The translations under genes and the position numbers were made by a program. From Desulfobulbaceae bacterium (GTDB lineage: Bacteria; Desulfobacterota; Desulfobulbia; Desulfobulbales; Desulfocapsaceae), in NCBI GenBank assembly GCA_004796425.1, contig QZLB01000012.1, forward strand, positions 1 to 33,619: a DNA stretch of 33,619 nucleotides, read 5' to 3'. Positions 2,608 to 33,619 of the stretch are shown one piece after another. Below the pieces are notes generated by a model that was not told where the DNA came from, did no database searches, and worked only from the letters and a program-made list of their open reading frames with translations. The stretch's first letter is position 1. The number at the start of each line of letters is the position of its first letter.

Positions 2608-5259
2608 ATGAGACCTGAAATCATCAGAAGAAACCTCCAGCATTCGGTGCTGTTCAAGAACCTGGAGGAACAGACGCTTGATGAACTGGTGGCGAATGGT
2701 GAAGTACGTCATTTTTCTCCTGGTGATTTCGTTCATCGAAAAGGTGATAAGGCCGACACCTTCTATGTTGTAGCGGTTGGCGAAGCTGAACTAACCCTGG
2801 AAACTGATGATGGAAATAACTCTATTGTTGGCAGGGTTGGACCTGGCGGACATTTCGGTGAGACCTCATTACTCACCTTTAAGCCCCAGTCATTAACCGT
2901 CCGAGCGCTTTTTGATGTGGTTCTGATCTGCTTCAGCGGCGATTTTTTTCGTCAGATATTGCGCAAACACCGGGTTATACAGGAACGGATTGAGTTCGCA
3001 CTGGCGGAACGTCTGCGCATTTCTTTCCAGGATCACGCAGCCAGTGTATTGGCCTGCGATATTTCAACCAGAAAGGAGATCAAACTGATTGATATGATGC
3101 CACTTTCTGATGAGAGTGGTGCTGATGAAGAAACAGCTGAAGGTGTCCGGGAAAAGGTCATGCGCTCCCATAGCGCCCGGGAGATCAAAGAGGCGATTAA
3201 TCGGTTATCCTCAAGTGAAGAACCGGTGTTGCTCTCTGGTGAATCGGGCACTGGCAGGAGACTTATTGCCAAACAGATTCACCTGCAGGGGGCGAATGCT
3301 CAGGGGCCGTATATCGAAGTTGATGCGCGGGAGTTTGATGCGGACCAACTGGCGCGAAGACTGTTCGGCGTAAAAAACGATCCATTTCCATTCTCCCAGG
3401 TTAGGCAGACCGGGATCCTTGAACAGTTCTGCCGGGGAACCGTTGTCCTCCATCATGTTGATAAGATACCCCTGCCCATCCAGAAGATGATTGCCGAGGC
3501 GATGGAAACGATGACTTTCACCAGAATTGGTGGTGAAAATCAGATTGCCCTCCAGGCTCGAATCATCTTTGTCGGTAATCTCTCACTCGATCAGCTCAGA
3601 GATAGTCTGCAAATAATTAAACCACTTGAAAAGAAATTAGAACATAATACCTTTCACGTCCCGGCATTGCGTTTTCACAAGCGAGATCTGCCCCACCTGG
3701 TAGATTATTACCTGCATCGTTTCAGTCGAGAGTATGGGAAAAAGGTCTCCACTGTTTCTCCTGATACGCTGGGTGTCTTAATGAATTATGATTGGCCGGG
3801 TAACCTGGTTGAGTTGTCCGCGGTGATTCAGCGTGCCGTTATGCTTGCCCGCGATGATGAAATCCTGACCGATCATATCTTGTTGGGATTACCCAAAACT
3901 GAAGGGAAGTGGGAGTTTAACCTGCTTCGTCTGCCCTGGATCAGGGGGGTGATGGAAAGCAAAATATTTCCCACTTTCCCGCGGGCGATTGTTGGCTTGG
4001 TCCTGCTGATGTCCGTGTTAACGCTCTTTTTTGGTCCTGCCGATCCGGAGAAAAATATTGGTATTGCCATCAGTTGGGTAGTGGGTTGGCCGTTACTTTT
4101 CTTCTCCTTTTTCTTCATGGCTCGAACCTGGTGTTCGGTCTGCACCCTGGCCATGCCGGGTACCCTTTTGCAGCGGCTAGTCAAACCCACCAAGAAGACT
4201 CCCCAGTTTATCAAGAAGAATTCCGGCTGGATCATGGCCAGTCTCTGTATTGCCGTGCTCTGGGTGGAGATTGTCTGGAACGCCTACCAGAACCCAGTCC
4301 TCACCGGTTGGATCATCCTGGCCATTACCATCGGTTCGGTTGTTTTTAGTGTGATTTATCAAAAACGGGCTTGGTGTCGATATCTCTGCCCGCTCGGGGC
4401 AATTAATGCCATTTTTGCCATGCCCTCCGTACTCGAATTACGCTCCAACCGCCACCTCTGCCTCAATCGTTGCGAGGACCACGCATGCTATTCCGGCGGA
4501 ATCGAGGAGGGAGGATGCCCGATGTTCAGGCACCCGTTCATGGTCGATAATAATCGGGACTGCATCATTTGTGGTGAATGCATAAAAAATTGTAACAAGC
4601 ATTCCATACACCTCAATGTCAGGATGGCGCCACAGGAATTGTGGGAAATAGAAGCTCCTCGTCGATCGGACAGTTTTTTAGTCGTGGCGCTCGGGGCGAT
4701 TTTTTTCCCCTTTGCATTGCATACCCAGTTTTATGAGCTGATCTGGTCACTCAAAAGAACGTATCCGGCAACTCTGGGCACGATACCATTTGCACTTATC
4801 GGTTCCGTGCTGTTTTTTGTCCTGATTTTTGTGTTTCAATTTGGCTATTACCTTATGGTTCAACTTCAGGCATATTTATCCCGGATTGATCGCAAACTTC
4901 TTCTGCCTTTGTTGGGGTATGGTTTTATACCAATAATTCTTGGTGTTTACCTGGCGGTTCACTTTGAGGTTTTTGTCAGTGAATCGTGGCGTGTCGTCTC
5001 GAATACCCGAGAGATTTTTGGCCTTTCATCAATCAGCGAAGGTGCTCGACTGATCAGCCCCGATGCGTCATCGTTATTGCAGGTCTTCACCGTCGCCGGA
5101 GGTTTTTTCGCCTCACTTTATGCTACCTATCGCATTGTTTTTCGCCTTAAGGGTGGCGGTGTCACAAAACGGGATCTGATTCTTCCCTATGGTTTTTTGG
5201 GAATGTTTACGGCGCTGTTTATCTTTTTCATGAAAACATCACAAATTATCCTGTTTTGA
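2608..5259 (+). CDS. Membrane fusion protein: cyclic-nucleotide-binding domain, degenerate AAA+ module, polyferredoxin
   Basis: The 883-residue protein joins three parts. Residues about 10-140 form a CAP/CNB-type sensor domain (FSPGDFVHRKGDKADTFYVV, GGHFGETSLL). Residues about 180-440 resemble the AAA+ domain of sigma54 activators. A Walker A, SGESGTGRR, lies at about 210-218 and a WPGNLVEL helix motif is present, but the GAFTGA loop is absent, the Walker B acidic pair reads LHHVDKI, and no C-terminal HTH follows. From about 455 a multi-pass membrane region carries NapH/NosR/CcoG-type motifs WCSVC (about 508) and WCRYLCPLG (about 589). Two cysteine clusters follow, CLNRC...CYSGG...GGCP (from about 618) and CIICGECIKNC (about 652), expected to bind Fe-S clusters. 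Further membrane helices end the protein. It is probably a redox or electron-transfer protein gated by a ligand; the partner is unknown. Confidence 0.85.
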   Translation: MRPEIIRRNLQHSVLFKNLEEQTLDELVANGEVRHFSPGDFVHRKGDKADTFYVVAVGEAELTLETDDGNNSIVGRVGPGGHFGETSLLTFKPQSLTVRALFDVVLICFSGDFFRQILRKHRVIQERIEFALAERLRISFQDHAASVLACDISTRKEIKLIDMMPLSDESGADEETAEGVREKVMRSHSAREIKEAINRLSSSEEPVLLSGESGTGRRLIAKQIHLQGANAQGPYIEVDAREFDADQLARRLFGVKNDPFPFSQVRQTGILEQFCRGTVVLHHVDKIPLPIQKMIAEAMETMTFTRIGGENQIALQARIIFVGNLSLDQLRDSLQIIKPLEKKLEHNTFHVPALRFHKRDLPHLVDYYLHRFSREYGKKVSTVSPDTLGVLMNYDWPGNLVELSAVIQRAVMLARDDEILTDHILLGLPKTEGKWEFNLLRLPWIRGVMESKIFPTFPRAIVGLVLLMSVLTLFFGPADPEKNIGIAISWVVGWPLLFFSFFFMARTWCSVCTLAMPGTLLQRLVKPTKKTPQFIKKNSGWIMASLCIAVLWVEIVWNAYQNPVLTGWIILAITIGSVVFSVIYQKRAWCRYLCPLGAINAIFAMPSVLELRSNRHLCLNRCEDHACYSGGIEEGGCPMFRHPFMVDNNRDCIICGECIKNCNKHSIHLNVRMAPQELWEIEAPRRSDSFLVVALGAIFFPFALHTQFYELIWSLKRTYPATLGTIPFALIGSVLFFVLIFVFQFGYYLMVQLQAYLSRIDRKLLLPLLGYGFIPIILGVYLAVHFEVFVSESWRVVSNTREIFGLSSISEGARLISPDASSLLQVFTVAGGFFASLYATYRIVFRLKGGGVTKRDLILPYGFLGMFTALFIFFMKTSQIILF

Positions 5260-20485: not shown

Positions 20486-20956
20486 ATGGCAAAAGATGAA
20501 ACCATAAAAAGTCGCTTTCGTGGAAGATCTGAGCATGCGCTTGATCCGAAGGGAAGGATGAACTTTCCGAGTAGATTCAAAGATGTTTTGAAGCTCTATG
20601 GTTCAGATACCCTGATGATCACATCATGGGGTGAACACCTTCGTGTTTTTCCAGCCTCAGAATGGCAGCTGTTTGAGGATAAGCTCCTTTCCAGGGGGCG
20701 TGAAGAACCCAATCTTTCAAGCTTTATTCGACATGTTGTTTCAGGAGTGTCCGAATGTTCACTGGATAAACAAGGAAGATTATTGATCCCGCATTCTCTC
20801 AGGTCAGAAGTCGGTATTGCGAAAGATGTCGTTCTGAATGGAATGCTCGAATTTGTCGAAATATGGGATCTGGATGCCTGGATGGTCGAGTTCCGTAAAA
20901 CGCGAGCGAACCTTGATCAATACGGTGAGAGTCTTGCAAAACTCGGAATTTTTTGA
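20486..20956 (+). CDS. mraZ: Transcriptional regulator MraZ
   Basis: MraZ is the autoregulator at the head of dcw clusters. The 156-residue protein has two AbrB-like half-domains, SEHALDPKGRMNFPSRFKDV (about residues 13-32) and ECSLDKQGRLLIPHSLRSEVG (about 90-110), each with the conserved D-x-K/Q-GR core. It forms ring-shaped oligomers that bind repeated GTGG boxes, which are present upstream here. No strong ribosome-binding site precedes the ATG, and the last operator box is only 9 nt before it. The stop overlaps the rsmH start by one base (TGATG). Confidence 0.96.
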   Translation: MAKDETIKSRFRGRSEHALDPKGRMNFPSRFKDVLKLYGSDTLMITSWGEHLRVFPASEWQLFEDKLLSRGREEPNLSSFIRHVVSGVSECSLDKQGRLLIPHSLRSEVGIAKDVVLNGMLEFVEIWDLDAWMVEFRKTRANLDQYGESLAKLGIF

Positions 20957-21855
20957 TGGAAGCAACAGCATATTCCGAAATGCACCAGTCAGTGCTGCTC
21001 GAAGAAACCGTCCAGATGCTCCGGGTGCAGCCGGGCAAGCTCTATGTAGATGGTACCTTCGGCCTCGGGGGACATACGAGTCGAATACTCAAAGATTCAG
21101 CACCCGATGGGCGGGTCATTGCCTTTGAGTGGGACGAACGAGCCATCGAACTTGGCAGCACACGGATAGCTGAAGAACGAGAGAGAGTAACAATTATTCG
21201 TAAGAACTTTGCTGAGTTGGATGCAGGTTTGGCAGAAGCGGGAATAGAAGTGGTGGATGGAATAATGGCGGATATCGGGATGTCTTCACTGCAAATTGAT
21301 CATGGTCAGCGAGGGTTCAGCTTTAAAAAAGATGAACCACTTGATATGCGGATGGATCAACGCAGAGCTCTCACTGCCGCGACACTTGTTGATTCTGCTT
21401 CTGCTGATGAACTGGCAGATATTTTTTATTGCTATGGTGATGAGCGGCAATCCCGGCGCATTGCCAATTGCATTGTCGAAGAGCGAAGAAGAAAAAGAAT
21501 AGAAACCACTGCACAATTGGCAGATATCGTCGCTCAAGCGATCCCGAAGCGATTCCATCCGCCGAAAATACATGTGGCGACCAAGGTCTTTCAGGCGTTG
21601 AGAATTGCAGTAAACGATGAACTGGCAAATCTTGCTTCCCTGCTTGATAAAGCCGCCGACTATTTGGTGGCAGGAGGGCGGCTGTGTATCATTTCGTTTC
21701 ATTCAATTGAAGATCGAATGGTCAAGCGCAAACTGGCTGCAAGTGCGATGCTAAAACCGATTACGAAAAAGCCAATTATGCCGGAGCAGTCAGAAATTAT
21801 AAGAAATCCACGTGCTCGCAGTGCGCGTTTACGCGTTGCTGAGCGATTAGCATAA
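20956..21855 (+). CDS. rsmH: 16S rRNA (cytosine1402-N4)-methyltransferase
   Basis: RsmH (MraW) methylates C1402 in the ribosomal P site. The 299-residue protein shows LYVDGTFGLGGHTSRIL (SAM loop), MADIGMSSLQIDHGQRGFSF, PLDMRMDQ, HVATKVFQALRIAVNDEL and SFHSIEDRMVKRKL, all diagnostic. The ATG at 20956 shares a base with the mraZ stop; a TTG one codon earlier is the only alternative. Its position between mraZ and ftsL is standard. Confidence 0.97.
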   Translation: MEATAYSEMHQSVLLEETVQMLRVQPGKLYVDGTFGLGGHTSRILKDSAPDGRVIAFEWDERAIELGSTRIAEERERVTIIRKNFAELDAGLAEAGIEVVDGIMADIGMSSLQIDHGQRGFSFKKDEPLDMRMDQRRALTAATLVDSASADELADIFYCYGDERQSRRIANCIVEERRRKRIETTAQLADIVAQAIPKRFHPPKIHVATKVFQALRIAVNDELANLASLLDKAADYLVAGGRLCIISFHSIEDRMVKRKLAASAMLKPITKKPIMPEQSEIIRNPRARSARLRVAERLA

Positions 21856-21866
21856 CAGGGGGAAAT

Positions 21867-22247
21867 ATGAACTATCAAAACCATTATCAAAACTCGATTG
21901 AATTCGGTTCTCAGGCAGCAACCGGGGTTAAGATCAGACAAACGCTTACTCGCCGGCGAATAACTGAATTGCCTGGCGGGGTATCCCTGTGGGTTGCTGC
22001 GGTAAAAGTTTCGTGCTTGATTCTTTGTTCGGTATTAATTTGTTCCATGTGGATCAGTTCACAGATTGGCCAGGCTCACCTGGAAATCCAGAAAGTAGAA
22101 GCACAGCATCATGCGCTCAGAGCTGAATCAAAAGAATTGAGAAAAACAAAAGCGCACCATTATTCCAAGGATCAAGTGAGGCGGCAGGCAGGTGAACAAT
22201 TGGCCCTCTATGTTCCTGGAGATGACCAGGTACATATGATCAGGTAA
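21867..22247 (+). CDS. ftsL: Cell division protein FtsL
   Basis: The 126-residue bitopic membrane protein has a cytoplasmic N-terminus of about 40 residues, one membrane segment (VSLWVAAVKVSCLILCSVLI, about residues 40-60), and a periplasmic coiled coil rich in Glu, Lys and Ala (about 66-105). It ends in LALYVPGDDQVHMI, which resembles FtsL C-termini. FtsL joins FtsB and FtsQ and activates FtsWI in characterised bacteria. Sequence conservation in this family is low, so the call rests on topology, size and position between rsmH and ftsI. GGGGGAA precedes the ATG. Confidence 0.88.
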   Translation: MNYQNHYQNSIEFGSQAATGVKIRQTLTRRRITELPGGVSLWVAAVKVSCLILCSVLICSMWISSQIGQAHLEIQKVEAQHHALRAESKELRKTKAHHYSKDQVRRQAGEQLALYVPGDDQVHMIR

Positions 22248-22256
22248 CCCGGGAGT

Positions 22257-24134
22257 ATGGCTCCGAGGTCCCGTCTACGTACCAGGGAAGGCAAGAGGCG
22301 GTGGCTTGTTGTTGTTCCGGTGATCCTGGCTTGCACCGGAGGTCTTGTGTTTTTGATTACCAGTGGATATCTCGAAGTCCCCGATTCCTTACGGCGCACT
22401 CTTTCATTTTCCACGCGCCTAGACCAGGACCTCCCACGGGGAATTATCTACGATAGAAGTTACAAGGAACTTGCCGTCTCATATGAACGGGTTTCGGTAT
22501 ATGTCAATGTCCGGGAAATCGAGGGAATCGGGGCGATCGTTACGCCTCTTACCTCGATCCTCGAAGAATCGGAAGAAGATTTAAGAAAGCGGCTTGAGGG
22601 AGATACTCTGCGATTATGGTTGGCAAGAGATATTACCCAGGAGCAGGAAGATGCAATTAAGGCGCTTGATCTGAAAGGTGTATTCCTCCATCGCGAGCAT
22701 GTGAGATATTATCCAAATCAGGAGATAGGTGCGCATCTTGTTGGTTTCGTAGAGGAAGACACTGGACTTTCAGGGGTTGAATATTACCTGAACAGCCTTC
22801 AGACCACCTATCGGATAGGTGAGCAGCAGGCCCAAAAACTCACCAAACTTGAGGAGAGCCAGCCGGGAACAGATGGCCAGCATCTCATCCTGACGCTGGA
22901 TCTGAGGATACAGAGACTCCTTGAGGACTATCTCAGCTCACTTGAGCTGGATGCAGAAAATCGCCGCTATGGGGTGATGGTAATGGAAGCATCATCGGGG
23001 GCGATAATCGGTTATGCGCAAAAGCCGTCGTTTGACCCGAATCGCTTTCAGATTTTCCCCCAGAATAATTTTGTCGATCTTTTTAACCAGCCGATGGCGT
23101 TGCCTGATGAATTAAAAATCTATTTCCGGGATCTTTCTTTGCTGGAAAGTCAATATTCAGAAGAAACAGCTAACCTCCCTTGGTCAATCACCGCCGAGGA
23201 TCGTCAACTCGGGGTTCAACTACAACTCTGGGAAAAGCTTGGTACCGGCAAAGGACAGCGCTACGATTTTGTCAGTGAGCCGCCAGAGCTTTCTAACCGG
23301 GTGGCCAAGGATCAAACCGGTACAATGCATCGAGATTTTGAGACCGTACCGGTTCTGCTCACACCATTGCAGATTGTCACGGCTGTTGCCCGGAGCTTTT
23401 ATGATGGAAGCACTATTACCCCGCATGTTGCAGACCGTTATGTGCTTAGGAAAAATCAGTCAGAATTTTTGCTGGAAGACCTAGAGCAGGAAATGAGTGG
23501 CAACAACCTGCAGCCTGGTGTTTCGGCAGAAGTTGCAAAGTTATTGAGTGCCCAGGGCAAAAAAGGCTCGGGGCCGCTGGATACACTCACTGTGGGAGGG
23601 GAAAGTATTTCTTATACCTCCGTAAATAAAAAGAAAATTTTTACGAACCATCGGATGAAACTTGGTCTGCATCCGGCCCAGAATCCGGAATTGATTTTCT
23701 TTGGCCTGGTCAGTGAAAACGGCTATCGTGTTCTACAGCGTAACTTATCTCGTTTTGAACAAACATTTGAGGATATCTATGCGCCTGTTGTAGCCCGCCA
23801 GAATGTCATTAAACACCTCATGAGTATGATGGAACCGCGTGAGCTTAAAACGCGCAATTTACGGGGGGGAGGCGGTCCAGGCGGTGAGCCTCAAGTTATT
23901 CCTACTGGCGGCACCAAGCGTAAACCGCTGTTTATTACCAAGATGCCCGATTTAACCGGCTTGAGTTTACGAAAAAGCTTGCGCATATTACAAGGAACCG
24001 GCGTAACCGTCACGGTCAAAGGAAGTGGCCGAGTGGTGAGACAGGAACCCGAGCCAGGGACGGTACTGGTATCGGGTGCCACCGTAATCATAGAGCTTCA
24101 ACCCGACCGTGTCGAATTGAAAGCTGAGAAATGA
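22257..24134 (+). CDS. ftsI: FtsI/PBP-like division protein lacking the transpeptidase active site, with PASTA domain
   Basis: The 625-residue protein sits in the ftsI position. It has a basic N-terminus, one membrane anchor (about 15-37), a dimerisation region starting DLPRGIIYDRSYKELAVSYE (about 57-76), a transpeptidase-like region from about 215, and a C-terminal PASTA domain (about 563-620, MPDLTGLSLRKSLRILQ). The fold is recognisable by VMVMEASSGAIIGYAQKPSFDPN and LLTPLQIVTAVARSF. The catalytic SxxK, expected after D-L/V-F, reads M280-A-L-P283. The SxN region is shortened with no SSN, and the KTG strand reads VGGESIS (446-452). The frame is open throughout, so this is a maintained but apparently catalytically dead homologue. 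FtsI normally crosslinks septal peptidoglycan with FtsW, which is also missing here. Confidence 0.85.
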   Translation: MAPRSRLRTREGKRRWLVVVPVILACTGGLVFLITSGYLEVPDSLRRTLSFSTRLDQDLPRGIIYDRSYKELAVSYERVSVYVNVREIEGIGAIVTPLTSILEESEEDLRKRLEGDTLRLWLARDITQEQEDAIKALDLKGVFLHREHVRYYPNQEIGAHLVGFVEEDTGLSGVEYYLNSLQTTYRIGEQQAQKLTKLEESQPGTDGQHLILTLDLRIQRLLEDYLSSLELDAENRRYGVMVMEASSGAIIGYAQKPSFDPNRFQIFPQNNFVDLFNQPMALPDELKIYFRDLSLLESQYSEETANLPWSITAEDRQLGVQLQLWEKLGTGKGQRYDFVSEPPELSNRVAKDQTGTMHRDFETVPVLLTPLQIVTAVARSFYDGSTITPHVADRYVLRKNQSEFLLEDLEQEMSGNNLQPGVSAEVAKLLSAQGKKGSGPLDTLTVGGESISYTSVNKKKIFTNHRMKLGLHPAQNPELIFFGLVSENGYRVLQRNLSRFEQTFEDIYAPVVARQNVIKHLMSMMEPRELKTRNLRGGGGPGGEPQVIPTGGTKRKPLFITKMPDLTGLSLRKSLRILQGTGVTVTVKGSGRVVRQEPEPGTVLVSGATVIIELQPDRVELKAEK

Positions 24135-24156
24135 TCAGAATAGGTTGAGCAGATCA

Positions 24157-27100
24157 ATGGATTCGCAAGACGACATGCACAATACAGCATCAAATCACTC
24201 CCAAGCGATTGGGGAAACCTTCGCCGGGATCGATTTCAACGTGGTCAAAGGAAGCTTTCGGGATGATCTGGTAATTACATCGATTACAGCTGATTCCAGA
24301 AAGGTCACTGCTGGGAGTATTTTTGTCGCGGTACGGGGTTTGAAATCCGATGGTCATCGCTTTATTGAGCAGGCGGTGAAGGCCGGGGCGGTGGTAGTGG
24401 TTGCTGAGCAGGGGAATTTTTCTGCAGATAAGTCTCTGACTGGTCAGGCAGTAGTGGTTACGGTGGAAGACACTGAGCTGATCCTGGCCTACCTCGCGGC
24501 CAATTATTATCAGCATCCGGCAAAACAATTATTTATTTCCGGAGTGACCGGAACGAATGGCAAGACCACGGTTACCTATCTAATCGAGCGGGTGCTTAAA
24601 GAACTTGAGATTCCAGTCGGAGTCATTGGTACGATTGAATACCGTTTTCCCGACCCGGCCGGTGAGTTAATTATTATACCGGCCCCATTTACTACCCCCG
24701 ATCCGATATTGCTTCATGCCGTATTGAGACGTATGGTCGATAATGGGGTCAGCCACGTAATTATGGAAGTATCTTCCCATGCCCTTGAGCAGAAGCGACT
24801 TGGTCCAATTACTTTCTCCCAGGCATTATTCACCAATTTTAGCCAGGATCACCTTGATTACCACCACTCAATGGAGGATTATTTTGAGGCCAAATGCCTC
24901 TTGTTTCGAGAACATTCCAATGGAAGCACCCAGGCAATAATTTACGATCCGGATCACCATGACAGAGAAAAATCGCTCTGGGCGCAACGTCTAGTAACAC
25001 TCTGCAAATCGCTGCAACTCCCTGTGGTCACTTGTGGGGACTCCGCCCAGAGCCAGGTACGGTTGAATCGATGCACTGGAGACCGACATGGCATCTACCT
25101 GGAGTTTCTCGATTCTTCTTTAACTCATCGAATTCTCAGTTCGCCACTAGTGGGAAGATTCAATGTGGAAAACCTGTTACTTGCTTATACGGCGCTGGAA
25201 CAGATGAGATTTGATTCAGACCGTGTGTGCAGCATCCTCAGTACTGCACCAGGGGCTCCCGGAAGATTAGACCCGGTAAGTTTTCACCAGCTCTCTGATA
25301 ACCTTCCTTCAACCTATGTGGACTATGCCCATACCCCTGATGCCCTCGAAAAGGTTTTGCAGACGCTTAAAAAACTCCCCCATCGAACACTCTTCTGTGT
25401 TTTTGGTTGCGGGGGCGATCGGGACCGTTCCAAACGACCACTCATGGCCGAGATCGCTGTTTCCTATAGTGATGTGGTGATTGTTACCGATGACAACCCG
25501 AGAACGGAAGATCCTGACAAGATCAGACAGGATATCATTGAAGGAGTTGAAACCGAAAGGATGGCATTACAACCGCGTACCTGGCTTTTTGAAAGAGCAG
25601 GTGAAGCCAAAGGGGTCGTTGAAATCGGTGATCGAGCCCGGGCGATTGAAGATGCGGTTCGGGCAGCTACCTCAGATGACATCGTACTAATTGCTGGCAA
25701 GGGGCATGAACAGTATCAGATTATCGGTCAGGAAAAGAGTTTTTTTGATGACCGATTGGCTGCCTGCCAGGCATCAATTGGCTGGGACGAGCAGACAATA
25801 AGTAATGCGCTCAAGCTGGATTACCATGCCAAACCCGGAGCCACAACCTTCACTGAAATTTCAACAGATACCAGAGAAATTAAGCAATCAGCTGTCTTTG
25901 TCGCCTTGAAAGGGGATAATTTTAATGGGCATGATTTTATCAACTTGGCACTCGACAAAGGTGCAGCCTGTTTGATTGTTTCAGAACGCCCCCGGGAAGA
26001 TGTTCGGGGTACCCCGGTACTATCAGTACCTGATACCCTGAGAGCACTTGGCGATCTTGCCCGGTGGCGGCGATCTGCACTTAGGCAGATGACCAATCCG
26101 GTCGTGGTTGGTATCACCGGCAGTTGCGGGAAAACAACGGTGAAGGAAATGACGGCCTCTATTATGGAGCAACAGTGGCCAGAGCGGATAGACCGCCCGG
26201 TGCATCGAGTGCTGAAAACCCAGGGAAATTTTAACAACCTTATCGGACTTCCTTTGACTCTGTTGCCAGCGAGTGTCACCCAGCGCGGAGTGATCCTTGA
26301 GATGGGAATGAATCAGTTTGGCGAAATAGAACGCTTAACAGAAATCGGTGACCCGGATATTGCCTGCATAACCAATATCGCCAGTGCCCACCTTGAAGGA
26401 CTGGGCAATATTGAAGGAGTCGCACGAGCGAAAGGTGAATTGTTCCAGGGAACCGGAGATCGGGCAATTCATGTGGTAAACCTTGATGATTCGTGGGTGG
26501 TTAAGCAAGCCAAATCATACACTAACCAAACAATCAGGTTCGGGATATCTGATCAGGCCTTGGCAGCAAAACCGGATGTCTGGGCAACAGAGACGAGTCT
26601 TGACAGCAATGGTATGGTTCGTTTCAGGTTGCATGTCGGCGGGCAAAATCAGTTTGTCCGGCTGAATTCTCCCGGAATGCATAATTGCATTAACGGTTGT
26701 GCGGCAGCGGCCATAGGAGTGGCGGCAGGGATTGACATCGAAACGATTGTTGAAGGATTGCAACAATTCCAGCCGGCCCCGAATAGAATGGCGCAATTAA
26801 TGACTCCTGCCGGGTTGAACCTGCTCAATGATACATATAACGCGAATCCGGTTTCAATGAGTTCTGCAATTAGCACCCTGGCCGGGCTTTCAGCGAGAAA
26901 ACGTGTTGCTATACTTGGTGACATGCTTGAACTGGGTGAAACGAGCAATAAATTACACCATGAACTTGGCCAGATTGCCGCAGCGGCCGGGCTCGATCTG
27001 ATCGCCGTTACTGGCAATTTCTCCGAGCATATCAGGCGGGGAGCACTTGATGCGGGAATGAACGAACATCAAGTTATTTCATTCAACGAAAAGCAGAGAG

Positions 27101-27225
27101 TTGTTGACTGGGTGAAAGAGCTGGTGCATAGTGGTCAACTGCAAAGCAATGACTGGATTCTGCTCAAGGCTTCACGTGGTCTGGCACTTGATACGGTGGT
27201 TGAAGATCTGATGCAGGATTGCTAA
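24157..27225 (+). CDS. murE/murF: Fused UDP-MurNAc-tripeptide ligase (MurE) and D-Ala-D-Ala adding enzyme (MurF)
   Basis: One 1022-residue frame carries two complete ligases. The MurE half (about residues 20-545) has P-loop GVTGTNGKTT (129-138), SSHALEQKRLG, the carbamylated-lysine segment EAKCLLF, and D446-N-P-R449, the signature for meso-diaminopimelate as added amino acid. The MurF half (about 550-1020) has P-loop GITGSCGKTT (652-661), TQGNFNNLIGLP, NIASAHLEGLG, NDTYNANP and ILGDMLELGE. Both active sites look intact, so the fusion should convert UDP-MurNAc-dipeptide to the pentapeptide in two steps. The ATG at 24157 is preferred; a TTG four codons earlier is possible. Such fusions are known in some bacteria. 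Confidence 0.96.
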   Translation: MDSQDDMHNTASNHSQAIGETFAGIDFNVVKGSFRDDLVITSITADSRKVTAGSIFVAVRGLKSDGHRFIEQAVKAGAVVVVAEQGNFSADKSLTGQAVVVTVEDTELILAYLAANYYQHPAKQLFISGVTGTNGKTTVTYLIERVLKELEIPVGVIGTIEYRFPDPAGELIIIPAPFTTPDPILLHAVLRRMVDNGVSHVIMEVSSHALEQKRLGPITFSQALFTNFSQDHLDYHHSMEDYFEAKCLLFREHSNGSTQAIIYDPDHHDREKSLWAQRLVTLCKSLQLPVVTCGDSAQSQVRLNRCTGDRHGIYLEFLDSSLTHRILSSPLVGRFNVENLLLAYTALEQMRFDSDRVCSILSTAPGAPGRLDPVSFHQLSDNLPSTYVDYAHTPDALEKVLQTLKKLPHRTLFCVFGCGGDRDRSKRPLMAEIAVSYSDVVIVTDDNPRTEDPDKIRQDIIEGVETERMALQPRTWLFERAGEAKGVVEIGDRARAIEDAVRAATSDDIVLIAGKGHEQYQIIGQEKSFFDDRLAACQASIGWDEQTISNALKLDYHAKPGATTFTEISTDTREIKQSAVFVALKGDNFNGHDFINLALDKGAACLIVSERPREDVRGTPVLSVPDTLRALGDLARWRRSALRQMTNPVVVGITGSCGKTTVKEMTASIMEQQWPERIDRPVHRVLKTQGNFNNLIGLPLTLLPASVTQRGVILEMGMNQFGEIERLTEIGDPDIACITNIASAHLEGLGNIEGVARAKGELFQGTGDRAIHVVNLDDSWVVKQAKSYTNQTIRFGISDQALAAKPDVWATETSLDSNGMVRFRLHVGGQNQFVRLNSPGMHNCINGCAAAAIGVAAGIDIETIVEGLQQFQPAPNRMAQLMTPAGLNLLNDTYNANPVSMSSAISTLAGLSARKRVAILGDMLELGETSNKLHHELGQIAAAAGLDLIAVTGNFSEHIRRGALDAGMNEHQVISFNEKQRVVDWVKELVHSGQLQSNDWILLKASRGLALDTVVEDLMQDC

Positions 27226-27251: not shown

Positions 27252-28331
27252 ATGCTCTACCATCTGCTCTACCCATTACATACCAGTTTTATCGGTTTTA
27301 ATGTCTTTCGATATATTACTTTCCGTTCTATCAGTGGCGCAATAACCGCATTCCTGATCATGCTCATTTTTGGTCCAATGTTCATCAGGATGATGAAACG
27401 GTTGCAAATTGGGCAGGTTGTCCGTGACGACGGTCCAGCAAGCCATATCAAGAAGCAGGGAGTGCCCACTATGGGTGGGTTACTGATATTGACGGCAGTG
27501 ATTGTTTCGACATTTCTCTGGGCCCGGCTGGATAACGGGCTGGTCTGGCTCTCTCTCTTTGTTATCTGTTTTTTTGGCCTGATCGGTGGGATTGATGATT
27601 TTCGTAAAATTAATACCGGACACAGTGATGGTCTAAGCGCCCGGGCTAAGCTGGTACTTCAGTTTATTGGTGCCGGTGCAGTCTCCTTGTTTATTTTGCT
27701 CTATCCCGGTTTTGACGGTCAGCTGAGTATTCCGTTTTTAAAAAACATCACTCCGGATCTCGGCTGGTTTTACCTCCTGTTTGCTATGCTGGTCATTGTC
27801 GGTGCATCTAATGCGGTGAACCTGACAGACGGCCTCGATGGTTTAGCGACCGGACCAACCATTGTCTCTGCGGCCGTTTATCTTGTGTTCTCCTACCTGG
27901 CAGGACATGTCGTCCTGGCGGAATACCTACAAATACCCTACGTGGCCGGCAGCGGAGAGCTTGCGGTTTTTTGCGGGGCGATCATTGGCGCCTGCCTCGG
28001 CTTTCTCTGGTTTAATGCCTACCCGGCACAGATGTTCATGGGTGATGTCGGTTCATTGTCATTGGGTGGGGCATTGGGCACGGTGGCGATTATTATCAAG
28101 CAGGAGATACTGCTGGCCATCGTTGGTGGTATTTTTGTGATGGAAGCGATTTCTGTGATTATGCAGGTCGGCTATTTTAAAATGACCAAGGGTAAAAGAA
28201 TTTTTCTGATGGCACCATTTCATCATCATTTTGAAAAAAAAGGGTGGCATGAAACCAAGGTCGTAATCCGTTTCTGGATTGTTTCAATCATTCTTGGATT
28301 TCTCGCGCTGGCCACCTTAAAACTGCGCTAA
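27252..28331 (+). CDS. mraY: Phospho-MurNAc-pentapeptide transferase
   Basis: MraY transfers phospho-MurNAc-pentapeptide to undecaprenyl phosphate, forming lipid I at the inner membrane. The 359-residue multi-pass protein has [29 protein letters not shown] (Asp pair), [26 protein letters not shown] and the [12 protein letters not shown] histidine motif. All catalytic residues known from the family are visible. Its stop overlaps the murD start (TAATG). Confidence 0.97.
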
Positions 28332-29710
28332 TGTCGGAAAAAATCATACTGAAAGAAGGAATGCGTGCAGGGGTGCTCGGTTTTGCCAGAGCGGGTCAAG
28401 CCGTTTGTCGATATCTGGCATCCCGGAATATTTCGGTTCTGGTTTCAGACCAGCGAACAAAACAGGAACTGTCTAGCCAGTATCAGCAGGTCCTCGCTGA
28501 GACTCGTGCGTATTATCAGGGTGGTGAACAGTCTGCTGAATTTTTCAAAGGATGCAATTTCGTTGTGATTAGTCCGGGGGTCGATCCCGGGCAGCAACTT
28601 GTCAGGGATATCAAAGCACTCTCAATCCCAGTCTATGGTGAGTTGGTACTTGCCGCCGGTCAATTTGAAGTCCCGGTGATCGCCGTTACCGGTACCAATG
28701 GCAAAACGACGGTAACAGAGCTCATTGGTGCACTATTGAAAGCAGGTGAGCAATCAGTTTTTGTTGGTGGCAATATTGGCAGGCCACTTTTTGAGTTTTT
28801 TCTAGACAGAGCGGATTATAAGGCAGTGGTCTTAGAAATTTCCAGCTACCAGCTTGAGAACTGTGGAACCTTTATGGCTGATATTGCCGTGCTGCTAAAC
28901 ATCACCGCGGACCATCTCGATCGACACGGGACCATGGAACAGTATGCCCGGGAGAAAATGAAAATATTTGGTAACGAAGAGCAGCAGGGCCAGGCAGTCA
29001 TCAATGGAGATGATCGCCTGACAGATCTATACCTGAACCTGGCTGATCGGACACAGTTCAGTCGATTCGGTTCTGCTCCAGACGCTCAAGCCGTGATTGG
29101 TGAAGAAAGTGTAGTGATAAAGGAGCGCAATGGTGAACAGATATATGATTTGAGTGATTGTGACCTTGGCTCGGTGACCGGTCGTCAGAACAGTGCTGCA
29201 GCATTGCTGGCAGTAAAGCCGTTTGGTTTGAACGCGGATGCGCTCAGGCAGGCGCTTCGATCCTTTAAAACCGGGCCGCATCGCCTTGAACTGGTGGATA
29301 CGATCAAAGGTGTCAAATATATTAATGATTCCAAGGCGACAAATACCGGTGCGGTTAAAAGTGGTTTGGCTCAGTTTGACAGTGGAGTGATTTTGATTGC
29401 CGGTGGCTCCGATAAAGGTGATGATTTCCGACTGTTGCGTGACTCGGTGGGGCGCTGTGTGAAACAGCTATTACTCATTGGCAGTTCGGCGGAGCGTCTT
29501 GTTGAGGCTCTTGCTGATATTGTTACGGTCAGCCGGGCGAACTCACTTGAAGATGCGGTCCGTCAGGCAGCTTCGCTGGCTGATGAGGACGATGTGGTGT
29601 TGCTCTCTCCGGCCTGTGCGAGTTTTGATATGTTTGATAGTTATATTCACCGAGGCGAGGTTTTCAGATCAATCGTTCACCAGCTCGCTAATGCTGAACA
29701 TGTCACATGA
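28331..29710 (+). CDS. murD: UDP-MurNAc-L-Ala:D-Glu ligase
   Basis: MurD adds D-glutamate in cytoplasmic peptidoglycan precursor synthesis. The 459-residue protein has GVLGFARAGQAVCRYL (N-terminal Rossmann), P-loop VTGTNGKTTVTELIG, LEISSYQLE, NITADHLDRHGTM, NDSKATNTGA, IAGGSDKGDDF and LLSPACASFDMF. It overlaps mraY by one base. Only 6 nt separate its stop from murG, leaving no room for the ftsW gene usually found here. Confidence 0.97.
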   Translation: MSEKIILKEGMRAGVLGFARAGQAVCRYLASRNISVLVSDQRTKQELSSQYQQVLAETRAYYQGGEQSAEFFKGCNFVVISPGVDPGQQLVRDIKALSIPVYGELVLAAGQFEVPVIAVTGTNGKTTVTELIGALLKAGEQSVFVGGNIGRPLFEFFLDRADYKAVVLEISSYQLENCGTFMADIAVLLNITADHLDRHGTMEQYAREKMKIFGNEEQQGQAVINGDDRLTDLYLNLADRTQFSRFGSAPDAQAVIGEESVVIKERNGEQIYDLSDCDLGSVTGRQNSAAALLAVKPFGLNADALRQALRSFKTGPHRLELVDTIKGVKYINDSKATNTGAVKSGLAQFDSGVILIAGGSDKGDDFRLLRDSVGRCVKQLLLIGSSAERLVEALADIVTVSRANSLEDAVRQAASLADEDDVVLLSPACASFDMFDSYIHRGEVFRSIVHQLANAEHVT

Positions 29711-29716
29711 GGTGAA

Positions 29717-30826
29717 ATGAGTAAAGCGGCTGAATCAGAGAGTGGTTTCAGGTTGCTAGTGACCGGTGGTGGCACCGGAGGACACCTTTTCCCTGCGGTT
29801 GCTGCAGCCCAGCAGTTGAGAGTGCGGGAGCCGACGGCGAAGATCCTTTTCATCGGTACGCGCCGAAAACTCGACCGCAACCAGCTCGAACGATATGGCT
29901 TTCGGGTCGAAACGATTCATTCAATGGGCCTGAAAGGCAAGAAGCTCAAAGCATTGGTCAGTGCATTATTGATTCTACCGGTGAGTCTTGTCCAGGCGCT
30001 TATTCAAATCATCAGGTTCAGGCCTCACCTGGTCCTTGGCGTGGGCGGCTATGTAACCGGTCCGGTTGTTGCCGCTGCCTGGCTGCTGAGGATTCCAACG
30101 GTTATTCATGAGCAGAATTCTGTGCCGGGAATGGCCAATCGAAAGCTTGCGAAATTAGTCGACAAAATTTGCATCTCAATGGAGTGCAGCAAGCGTTTTT
30201 TCCCAATTGACAAAACGGTGTTTACCGGGAATCCGGTCAGATCGCAGATAATCGAGCTCAGGGATCAAAATCCGCTAGATCAGCAAACTCCAACAATACT
30301 GGTTCTCGGGGGCAGCCAGGGTGCACATTCGGTTAACAAGGTCGTGGTAAATGCCATCAAGCATGATCTGGATCGTTTCAAAGCCATCAAAATCATTCAT
30401 CAAACTGGCAAAGCAGATGAATCATGGGTGGCCGAAGCCTATCGGGAAATGGGTATTAAGGCAGAGGTATCCGCATTTTTCAACCAGATGGAGTCAATAT
30501 ACGGATCAGCGAGCCTGGTAATCAGCAGGGCCGGGGCAACAACGCTTGCAGAACTTGCGGTCGTGGGCATACCGGCTATATTGATTCCCTATCCATATGC
30601 CGCTGACAATCACCAGGAAATCAATTCACTGGAAATCGTTGATAAAGGTGGTGGGGTCATGATACCTGAACGAGAGCTCGAAGAAGAAGCGCTCTCAAAG
30701 ATGCTGCAAAGACTGCTCGATTCACCTGATGAGCGTGAGAAGATGTCTGCGGCAATCAAATTGTTTGGTATTGTTGAAGCTGCCGATCGAATTATAGACG
30801 AGTGTTTGAAAGCAGGGAGAAAATAG
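29717..30826 (+). CDS. murG: Lipid II-forming GlcNAc transferase
   Basis: MurG adds GlcNAc to lipid I at the inner face of the cytoplasmic membrane. The 369-residue GT28 enzyme has the G-loops [17 protein letters not shown] and [12 protein letters not shown], the acceptor segment [22 protein letters not shown], and the UDP-GlcNAc-binding [26 protein letters not shown] followed by DNHQ. The ATG is directly downstream of murD with a GAGG site overlapping the murD stop region. Confidence 0.97.
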
Positions 30827-30831
30827 CAGGT

Positions 30832-32217
30832 ATGTATAGAAAAACCAAACATATACACTTTGTGGGTATCGGTGGAATCGGGATGAGTGGTATTGCTGAG
30901 CTGCTCAATAATCTCGGCTATCGAGTCTCCGGATCAGACCTGAATCAATCGAAGATCACCGAAAACCTGTCGCGGATTGGCTGTACAATCTATATCGGTC
31001 ATAAGGGAGAGTGGATCAGTGGTGCCGATGTTGTGGTAACCTCCTCAGCCATCGATACCTCAAATCCTGAAGTACTCGCTGCGCAGGAGATGGGTATCCC
31101 GGTAATCATGAGGGCTGAAATGCTGGCCGAGCTGATGCGGTTGAAAAAATTCGGAATCGCGATTGCAGGCAGCCATGGCAAGACCACCACCTCCTCCATG
31201 GTCAGTTGGATGATGGCCAAAGCCGACCTTGATCCGACCATTGTGGTTGGCGGCAAGGTGGACAGTCTCGGGGGGAATGCGAAACTGGGAGCGGGTGAGT
31301 TCCTTGTTGCTGAAGCTGATGAGAGTGATGGCTCCTTTTTGAAATTATCTCCAGTGCTTGAGGTTGTTACCAATATAGATCTGGAACACCTCGATTATTA
31401 TCATGATATTAATCACATCAAGTCATCATTCTTACAGTTTATCGATAAGATACCCTTTTACGGAGCTGCGATAATCTGCCTGGATGACAAGCATATTGCA
31501 GAAATTCTACCGGAAATCAAAAAGCGAATCATCACTTACGGGTTAACCAGACAGTCTGATCTGTATGCGGAGAATATCAGTTATCAGCGCGGCCGGGTGT
31601 CTTTTACCGCAACGCAGCGTGAACAGGAACTCGGCGAAATTGATCTCTCGACGCCTGGTGAACACAATGTCTATAACGCACTTGCCACCATTTGTGTTGG
31701 CTTGGAGTTGGAAATACCGTTCTCGGTGATCGCTGATTCATTAGCGACCTTTGGCGGGGTTCAACGGAGAATGGAGCATAAAGGAGAGGTCAACGGAATT
31801 ACCGTTGTTGATGATTACGGTCACCACCCAACCGAGATTCGAGCGACGCTGGCGGCTCTCAAACAGGCGTGGCCCGAAAAAAGACTGGTTGTCATGTTTC
31901 AGCCGCATCGCTACAGCCGCACAAAAGGCCTTTTCGAAGAATTTAAAACCTGCTTCCACCAAGCGGATATGTTAGTGATGACAGATATTTATGCTGCTAG
32001 TGAAAAACCAATTGAGGGTGTCTCAAGCCAGGCTCTGCTGGAACAGATTCGTCAGCATGGCCAGCGCCACACACTTTTTATCGGTGATGTGGATCAGTTG
32101 GCAACACAAATGTGTGATGAAGTTAAGTCGGGCGATCTGGTGCTCAGCCTTGGGGCCGGAAATATTGTTCGGGCCGGTGAGGAGTTGGTCCAGTTGCTGG
32201 AGAAACGGAGGGACTGA
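30832..32217 (+). CDS. murC: UDP-MurNAc:L-alanine ligase
   Basis: MurC adds the first amino acid to UDP-MurNAc. The 461-residue protein begins [20 protein letters not shown] and has P-loop [44 protein letters not shown] and FQPHRYSRT. The ATG at 30832 was selected because it puts the Rossmann strand at the usual distance from the N-terminus. An ATG at 30802 lies inside murG and adds ten unrelated residues. Confidence 0.97.
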
Positions 32218-32219
32218 GC

Positions 32220-33149
32220 ATGGCGATTAGCAGCCAGGCACAAGAAGAACTCAAGCACCTGCTGAGTGCTCCGGTAATCTGGGATGCCCCGCTTGAGGCG
32301 TGGACCACCTTTCGCATCGGTGGCCCGGCTGAGGCCTTGGTTACGGTTGAAAACGAAGATGAGCTGATCGAACTGCTGAAGTTCTGCAAAAGATATGAAG
32401 TGGACTGGTTGGTAATAGGGAAGGGATCGAATATCCTGGTATCCGATGACGGGTACCCGGGCATCGTGATTACCCTGGGATCAGGATTCAAATTTGTTTC
32501 ATCCCAGCCAGGCGAGCAGGATGGTGAAGTTCTGGTTGATGCAGGTGCGGCGCATGGTTTATCAACCCTGGCCGATTATTGTGGTGCCGAGGGGTTCACC
32601 GGGATGGAGTTTTGTGCAGGAATACCGGCAAGTGTGGGCGGTGCTGCAGTCATGAATGCCGGTGCCCATGGAGGTGAGATTTCGGGAATAGTACACCGGG
32701 CGACGATTGTTTCAGCAGAGGGGAGAGAGGTATTGAGCAGCGATATGCTCCGGTTTCACTATCGAAGGTGGCTCGACATGGAGGAATGGCGAAAAACCTC
32801 TCTAGTAACAGCCCTGCAGTTCAAACTAAAAACTGGTAATTCCGTGAATATCCTTGCGGAAATGAAATTGCTAAGAAAACAACGCTGGGACCGGCAGCCG
32901 GTCGGAATGCCTAACGCAGGATGCTGCTTTAAAAATCCCGAGGTAGGGAGTGCCGGTCAGCTGATAGACCAGGCGGGTCTGAAAGGATTGCGAATCGGAG
33001 ATGCAGAGGTCTCAGAAAAGCACGCCAATTTCATTGTAAACAGGGGGAGAGCTACCGCTTCTGATGTACGTAAATTGATGCAGCAGGTGCAGGCATGTGT
33101 GGCTGAAAAATATGGGGTTAATCTGGAACCTGAAGTCCGAATATTATGA
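32220..33149 (+). CDS. murB: UDP-N-acetylenolpyruvoylglucosamine reductase
   Basis: MurB reduces UDP-GlcNAc-enolpyruvate to UDP-MurNAc with FAD and NADPH. The 309-residue protein has the FAD-binding segments TTFRIGGPAE and LVIGKGSNILVSDDG, the EFCAGIPASVGGAAVMNAGAHG core, and FHYRRW. The catalytic-acid segment reads NAGCCFKNP, with cysteine where E. coli MurB has serine, a substitution found in some family members. EVSEKHANFIVN and the final Glu region EPEVRIL complete it. GGAGGG precedes the ATG, and the stop overlaps ftsQ as ATGA. Confidence 0.96.
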   Translation: MAISSQAQEELKHLLSAPVIWDAPLEAWTTFRIGGPAEALVTVENEDELIELLKFCKRYEVDWLVIGKGSNILVSDDGYPGIVITLGSGFKFVSSQPGEQDGEVLVDAGAAHGLSTLADYCGAEGFTGMEFCAGIPASVGGAAVMNAGAHGGEISGIVHRATIVSAEGREVLSSDMLRFHYRRWLDMEEWRKTSLVTALQFKLKTGNSVNILAEMKLLRKQRWDRQPVGMPNAGCCFKNPEVGSAGQLIDQAGLKGLRIGDAEVSEKHANFIVNRGRATASDVRKLMQQVQACVAEKYGVNLEPEVRIL

Positions 33150-33619
33150 GTTTTTTAAGTAAAATTAAAAAATTAATAGGGAAAATCCTGGGCAATAAAC
33201 GGGTCGGTGGGATCGACTCCGGACGGGATATTTTCTTAAAAATCGACAATAAGGATTACCGGAAAAAACAAAATTTACTCCGTAAACTCAACAGCTATCG
33301 GGAGAAGAGAAAAAGCTCATCGTATAAACCCTATCAAGCGCAGAAGATCAGAATCAAACCGCTGAGGATGCTGTTGCTCCTGGTCTGTCTTGTAATGACC
33401 ATACTGCTCTTTAAACAAAACGATGGCCCCCAAATGATACGCCATGCCCTGGAGTCGGTAGCGTATTTTAAAATAACCCGAATTGAAGTAACAGGGGTGA
33501 GACACTCCACTGCAGAAACGATACGAGCTGCATCGGGGATACAGATGAGTGACAGTATCTTTTCCATCAGCGATTCCCGGATTGTTGATTCGATAAAAGC
33601 TGCAGACAAGTGGGTAAAA
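33146..33619 (+). CDS. ftsQ: Cell division protein FtsQ (3' end outside window)
   Basis: The open frame starts at the ATG overlapping the murB stop and runs off the window after 158 codons. It has a long, lysine- and arginine-rich cytoplasmic tail of about 72 residues and a single membrane helix (LRMLLLLVCLVMTILLF, about 73-90). A POTRA-type domain follows (FKITRIEVTGVRHSTAETIRA, then DSIFSI), as expected of FtsQ/DivIB. FtsQ joins FtsL and FtsB in the divisome. No ddl gene lies between murB and ftsQ. Confidence 0.92.
   Translation, partial: MSFLSKIKKLIGKILGNKRVGGIDSGRDIFLKIDNKDYRKKQNLLRKLNSYREKRKSSSYKPYQAQKIRIKPLRMLLLLVCLVMTILLFKQNDGPQMIRHALESVAYFKITRIEVTGVRHSTAETIRAASGIQMSDSIFSISDSRIVDSIKAADKWVK

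Follow-up and report, generated by a model that had tools for sequence, protein, structure and literature searches.

The ftsI slot of the dcw cluster

The window, by which we mean the whole stretch of 33,619 nucleotides analysed from a Desulfobulbaceae bacterium, carries a run of dcw genes on the forward strand. The cluster begins with mraZ (20486..20956) and rsmH (mraW; 20953..21855), both assigned by Pfam, and continues with a gene for a 126-residue FtsL/DivIC-like protein (21867..22247), which is named from DivIC and FtsL matches below the Pfam cut-offs together with its position directly before ftsI. Beyond the ftsI slot lies a murE-murF fusion (24145..27225; 1026 residues), recognised by Pfam and by the NCBIfam model for bifunctional MurE/MurF, which aligns over nearly the whole length at 985.7 bits (cut-off 1023). 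It is followed by mraY (27252..28331), murD (28331..29710), murG (29717..30826), murC (30802..32217, from its Mur ligase domains), murB (32220..33149) and the start of ftsQ (33146..33619, with a POTRA_1 match), which is cut by the contig end; all of these are Pfam assignments. A separate contig of the same genome (C124) carries ftsA and ftsZ, so that FtsL-like protein, FtsQ, FtsA and FtsZ are all retained. The murE-murF fusion is seen in the window's family and in family f12 (probably Desulfobulbaceae), and the two genes are separate at loci L103, L106-L108 and L207 and in family f28, which is described below.

The gene in the ftsI slot (22257..24134), with the ftsL-like gene before it and murE after it, has an ATG start and 625 codons with no internal stop in the open reading frame translation of the window. 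Alignment, tree and an AlphaFold2 model (mean pLDDT 84, with the expected fold of a class B penicillin-binding protein, bPBP) identify the product as an FtsI orthologue without catalytic motifs, here called pseudo-FtsI. AlphaFold2 predicts a membrane helix at residues 13-35 (22293..22361), which is followed by the pedestal or dimerisation region at residues 60-235 (22434..22961), defined by a Pfam PBP_dimer match to residues 60-170 and by the dN/dS values and invariant residues discussed below. Next is a shortened transpeptidase remnant at residues 236-517 (22962..23807), whose fold is kept in part as judged by Pfam, AlphaFold2 and structure search; the Pfam Transpeptidase model matches its C-terminal half only (367-493, 26 bits). 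A PASTA domain occupies residues 562-614 (23940..24098; Pfam, 43.1 bits, and dN/dS). With PSFDPN at residues 257-262 and TPLQIVTA at 369-376, the Pfam matches, the model and the motif positions bear out the description in an earlier note on this DNA of an ftsI-slot protein that keeps the anchor, dimerisation region, both of these motifs and a C-terminal PASTA domain. The structure search, which informs on the fold and not on the atom-level geometry of the cleft, matches SpoVD (Z 32.5, rmsd 4.0, 415 residues aligned), S. aureus PBP1 and P. aeruginosa FtsI within FtsWIQBL (Z 30.6).

Pseudo-FtsI shares with canonical FtsI/PBP3 of E. coli (7onw) and P. aeruginosa (8bh1) its dcw position, membrane helix, pedestal and orthology in the tree, and its fold compares with these two at VIA-align Z 29-31; it differs in lacking SxxK, SxN and KTG, in its shortened transpeptidase domain and in having no FtsW partner. 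The orthology was assessed in a tree built from the pedestal only, with FtsI of the same phylum. In this tree the Desulfobulbales proteins are united in a single clade (100/100) within FtsI, and FtsI including pseudo-FtsI is split from PBP2 at 96/94. An earlier tree whose outgroup came from other phyla was of little help, because most of its outgroup proteins were judged PBP2-like, and was replaced. Close homologues are found in Desulfofustis, Desulfocapsa, Desulfoprunum, Desulforhopalus, Desulfopila and Desulfosediminicola, from which the genome is most likely a member of Desulfocapsaceae in the order Desulfobulbales. Identity among members is just 22-46%, and pseudo-FtsI falls below every NCBIfam FtsI cut-off, as might be expected if this were another class B-like protein and the real FtsI were encoded elsewhere. 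However, pseudo-FtsI occupies the slot between ftsL and murE and groups within FtsI, apart from PBP2, and the other PBP_dimer protein of the genome is PBP2 only. A check for a second, intact FtsI in the window genome, suggested previously, found none, the remaining transpeptidase-domain proteins being PBP2, a class A PBP and an OXA-type beta-lactamase, and we regard an FtsI encoded elsewhere as very improbable. The beta-lactamase is a class D enzyme with an intact STFK motif (locus L002, G000:C60).

Catalytic motif slots and selection

When pseudo-FtsI is aligned with intact FtsI, all three of SxxK, SxN and K[TS]G are absent from the aligned places, as the earlier note had claimed, although the position of the first slot has to be corrected. 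The SxxK equivalent had been read as M280-A-L-P283, which is five residues off. MAFFT alignment with 24 intact FtsI of Desulfobacterota, and an HMM of 52 relatives compared with E. coli FtsI (E 3.9e-45), place the Ser*-x-x-Lys* slot at E285-L-K-I288 (23109..23120), and the AlphaFold helix 284-298, which is the helix normally bearing SxxK, starts at this slot. The SxN slot reads D315-R-Q317 (23199..23207) in a gapped stretch of the MAFFT alignment with intact FtsI, so the region indeed lacks SSN. The former KTG strand reads VGGESIS at residues 446-452 (23592..23612) by alignment and motif position, again as first described; the KTG slot itself is I451-S-Y453 in the MAFFT alignment or E449-S-I451 in the original register (VAGKTG over VGGESI), and the motif is missing in either. 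In the alignments, none of the three slots reads as a catalytic motif. The SxxK slot is clearer in other Desulfobulbales families, reading PGGIGR, PGGLNG, PGAINR or PGELTR against PGSTFK.

The Desulfobulbales are mostly sulfur-metabolising bacteria, and the catalytic motifs are missing from every homologue examined, whether it comes from the window's family or from another family of Desulfobulbales. All three motifs are kept in the aligned FtsI from Desulfobacterota outside Desulfobulbales (24 of 24). The 69 homologues taken from named genomes all keep an open frame, and none has an aligned SxxK. The assembly of the window genome is fragmented (330 contigs), and a sequencing error, a misassembly or a decaying pseudogene could be suspected on that account. 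Against this, the motif loss and the open frames occur in the 69 named genomes, including the closed chromosomes NZ_CP050700 and NZ_CP050698, and dN/dS is far below 1, which speaks against decay. Because the motif loss recurs throughout family and order, chance and error are excluded, and with every frame open and dN/dS low we rule out the error or pseudogene reading, to which we give practically no weight. A single-contig genome of the window's family (G015, locus L031) has pseudo-FtsI in two frames.

Estimated from 40 pairs with dS <1.3, dN/dS has a median of 0.19 overall, 0.115 in the pedestal, 0.20 in the transpeptidase remnant and 0.14 in the PASTA domain, with the loosest constraint at N-terminal residues 1-56 (median 0.37). 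The pedestal is thus the most constrained part and holds most of the invariant residues, nearly all of which lie in pedestal and PASTA. The ratio of transpeptidase to pedestal identity is 0.60 in Desulfobulbales compared with 1.23 (range 1.02-1.51) in intact FtsI, the length of the transpeptidase domain varies from 212 to 283 residues compared with a rigid 264-270, and PASTA identity is 43% compared with 35%. From these comparisons we conclude that constraint has shifted from the catalytic domain to the pedestal and PASTA. The proposal that this is a maintained pseudoenzyme is therefore well supported by the 69 open frames, by the low dN/dS (far below 1) of each periplasmic domain and by the order-wide loss. 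The view that a 625-codon open frame does not reflect simple decay likewise stands, and the check proposed on relatives found both the same motif loss and dN/dS below 1.

The old cleft might instead have gained or kept another activity, for example as a sensor of stem peptide or lipid II, which would make the protein more than a scaffold. The remnant is still selected at the dN/dS given above and folds confidently, with pLDDT mostly >78, but among the large domains it has the lowest conservation (22% identity), its length is variable, and the invariant residues lie almost entirely outside it; we consider such an activity improbable.

Absence of FtsW and the SEDS count

In bacteria that have a wall and use FtsZ, FtsW and FtsI are usually viewed as the core synthase of the septum. 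A single SEDS protein is encoded in the window genome, where mreD and PBP2 share its operon; it scores above the cut-off of the curated RodA model (411 bits, cut-off 337) and below that of the curated FtsW model (300 bits, cut-off 337.5). FtsW was not found in this genome, the single SEDS protein being RodA, and at the place expected for ftsW there is a gap of 6 bases between murD and murG (29711..29716). Of 62 loci, 60 show the same closed junction. The count of SEDS proteins covered 107 Desulfobulbales genomes with a completeness of at least 90%. Exactly one SEDS protein is present in 103 of them; of the other four, two lack SEDS altogether, one carries it as a split frame and one as fragments. 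Exactly two PBP_dimer proteins occur in 104 of the 107. Outside Desulfobulbales, 73 of 94 Desulfobacterota genomes have at least two SEDS proteins. The loss of FtsW together with the death of FtsI is as expected if the pair works as one enzyme. Neither the order-wide extent nor the ftsW loss was in the earlier note. In a single-contig Desulfobulbales genome (G035, locus L180, about 2613-3808) RodA lies in two frames, which is either a real lesion or a sequencing error.

A family of the phylum outside Desulfobulbales, f28, shares both losses: in its FtsI, DIYELGELAGF replaces DVFEPGSMFKAF, its murD abuts murG and RodA is its sole SEDS protein. A single clade of f28 with Desulfobulbales is not rejected (p-AU 0.35), and the paired loss in f28 suggests that this route was taken more than once or that it is older than Desulfobulbales. 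Single-SEDS lineages are also seen elsewhere in the phylum (G179, G144, G143/G178/G204 and G139/G175); in G179 there is a lone bPBP match beside RodA, and FtsI may be altogether absent.

According to a 2021 study, ftsW, ftsN and zipA are missing from the genomes of two cable bacteria and from two Desulfobulbus genomes, and FtsI was listed there as one of the late division proteins recruited (PMC7873302). These organisms belong to the same order, but FtsI was counted there as ordinary and its lost active site went unreported. The absence of ftsW from four Desulfobulbaceae genomes and catalysis-independent roles of bPBPs have thus been reported already, and among open-licence PMC papers treating FtsI with Desulfobulbales or Desulfobacterota we found no report of a dead FtsI or of its order-wide extent. 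We know of no case of a dcw-encoded FtsI that is naturally dead across a clade.

Candidate septal synthases and a non-catalytic FtsI

With the active site gone and FtsW missing, FtsZ-based division must use another wall-building enzyme. Besides an intact PBP2 (PPGSTYK, GKTGT), the window genome encodes a bifunctional class A PBP (PAGSVFK, GKTGT) and another GT51 protein, and these can supply polymerisation and cross-linking. We think it likely that the FtsI of this lineage is a permanent non-catalytic subunit of the divisome, and that the septal wall would be made by class A PBPs, by RodA-PBP2 or by both. Synteny and pedestal conservation point to membership of pseudo-FtsI in the divisome; its role as a scaffold, and that of its PASTA domain, is suggested by analogy with the systems described below. 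In a plausible mechanism, the membrane helix and pedestal would contact FtsQ/FtsL at the Z-ring, PASTA would attach to septal peptidoglycan or to a synthase, and pseudo-FtsI would in this way recruit or regulate the true septum-building enzyme, most likely the bifunctional class A PBP, alone or with RodA-PBP2. The PASTA domain may nevertheless bind nothing, and the pedestal could owe its constraint to a different partner, one without a part in division.

Several characterised systems offer partial precedents. S. aureus PBP1 resembles pseudo-FtsI in carrying PASTA at the C-terminus of an FtsI-type protein, but differs in being catalytically active and in having two PASTA domains. These domains bind peptidoglycan and are required for septum progression (PMC9426605). 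In B. subtilis the S309A mutant of PBP2B supports division while PBP3 supplies the activity (PMC5656894), but this is a laboratory mutant with FtsW present, whereas the Desulfobulbales state is natural and clade-wide. The divisome of C. difficile comes close in function. It has no working FtsW/FtsI pair, as in Desulfobulbales, and it uses another septal synthase and a class B PBP that acts without catalysis, two features that would apply to Desulfobulbales as well. Division there uses a class A PBP (PMC10693644), with which the class B protein PBP3 forms complexes, acting without catalysis (PMC12539705). Even so, the active sites of PBP3 and SpoVD are retained in C. difficile, whereas the dcw FtsI of Desulfobulbales is dead by sequence; FtsA is absent in C. 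difficile and kept in Desulfobulbales, which are Gram-negative.

SEDS polymerases as a rule depend on a class B partner, and in nearly every genome a single SEDS protein and a single intact PBP2 are encoded next to MreB. RodA-PBP2 could accordingly be the only septal synthase, with pseudo-FtsI and FtsQ/FtsL bringing the pair to the Z-ring in place of FtsW-FtsI. We hold this to be rather unlikely, as the SEDS protein is a curated RodA located in the mre operon, and C. difficile offers the precedent of a septum assigned to a class A PBP and elongation to RodA-PBP2. Two genomes that keep pseudo-FtsI apparently lack RodA, PBP2 and MreB, which would also count against this alternative, although an assembly gap may be the cause. 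For that reason we dropped these genomes (G058 and G117) as natural knock-outs that might choose between the class A PBP and RodA-PBP2. MreB, PBP2 and RodA are encoded in one cluster, and in G058 (a 1.08 Mb part) a gene that lies about 4 kb past rodA in a relative maps to within about 0.5 kb of a contig end, which makes such a gap possible. In G117, a Desulfobulbales genome of 2.0 Mb and 90% completeness (loci L225 and L221), there is no match to SEDS, transpeptidase (PF00905), GT51 or a true MreB, and the dcw cluster is intact with pseudo-FtsI, FtsA and FtsZ; either the lineage has no peptidoglycan polymerases or the assembly is at fault.

To return to the non-catalytic subunit that we prefer, its most specific form is a Gram-negative order without an FtsW-FtsI synthase, in which the dead FtsI would serve as a platform that positions the class A PBP at the Z-ring and switches it on. 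We put this forward tentatively, with a little less than even confidence. The Desulfobulbales, an order that includes Desulfobulbus and the cable bacteria, provide natural evidence that the FtsW-FtsI pair can be lost and FtsI retained for a non-catalytic purpose. They lend themselves to a direct test of what FtsI does beyond cross-linking, and of the ability of a class A PBP or of RodA-PBP2 to run the septum in a Gram-negative cell, and FtsI-specific beta-lactams such as aztreonam are predicted to have no effect on their division through FtsI. If the platform reading is true, the assembly role of FtsI would have been uncoupled from catalysis in nature.
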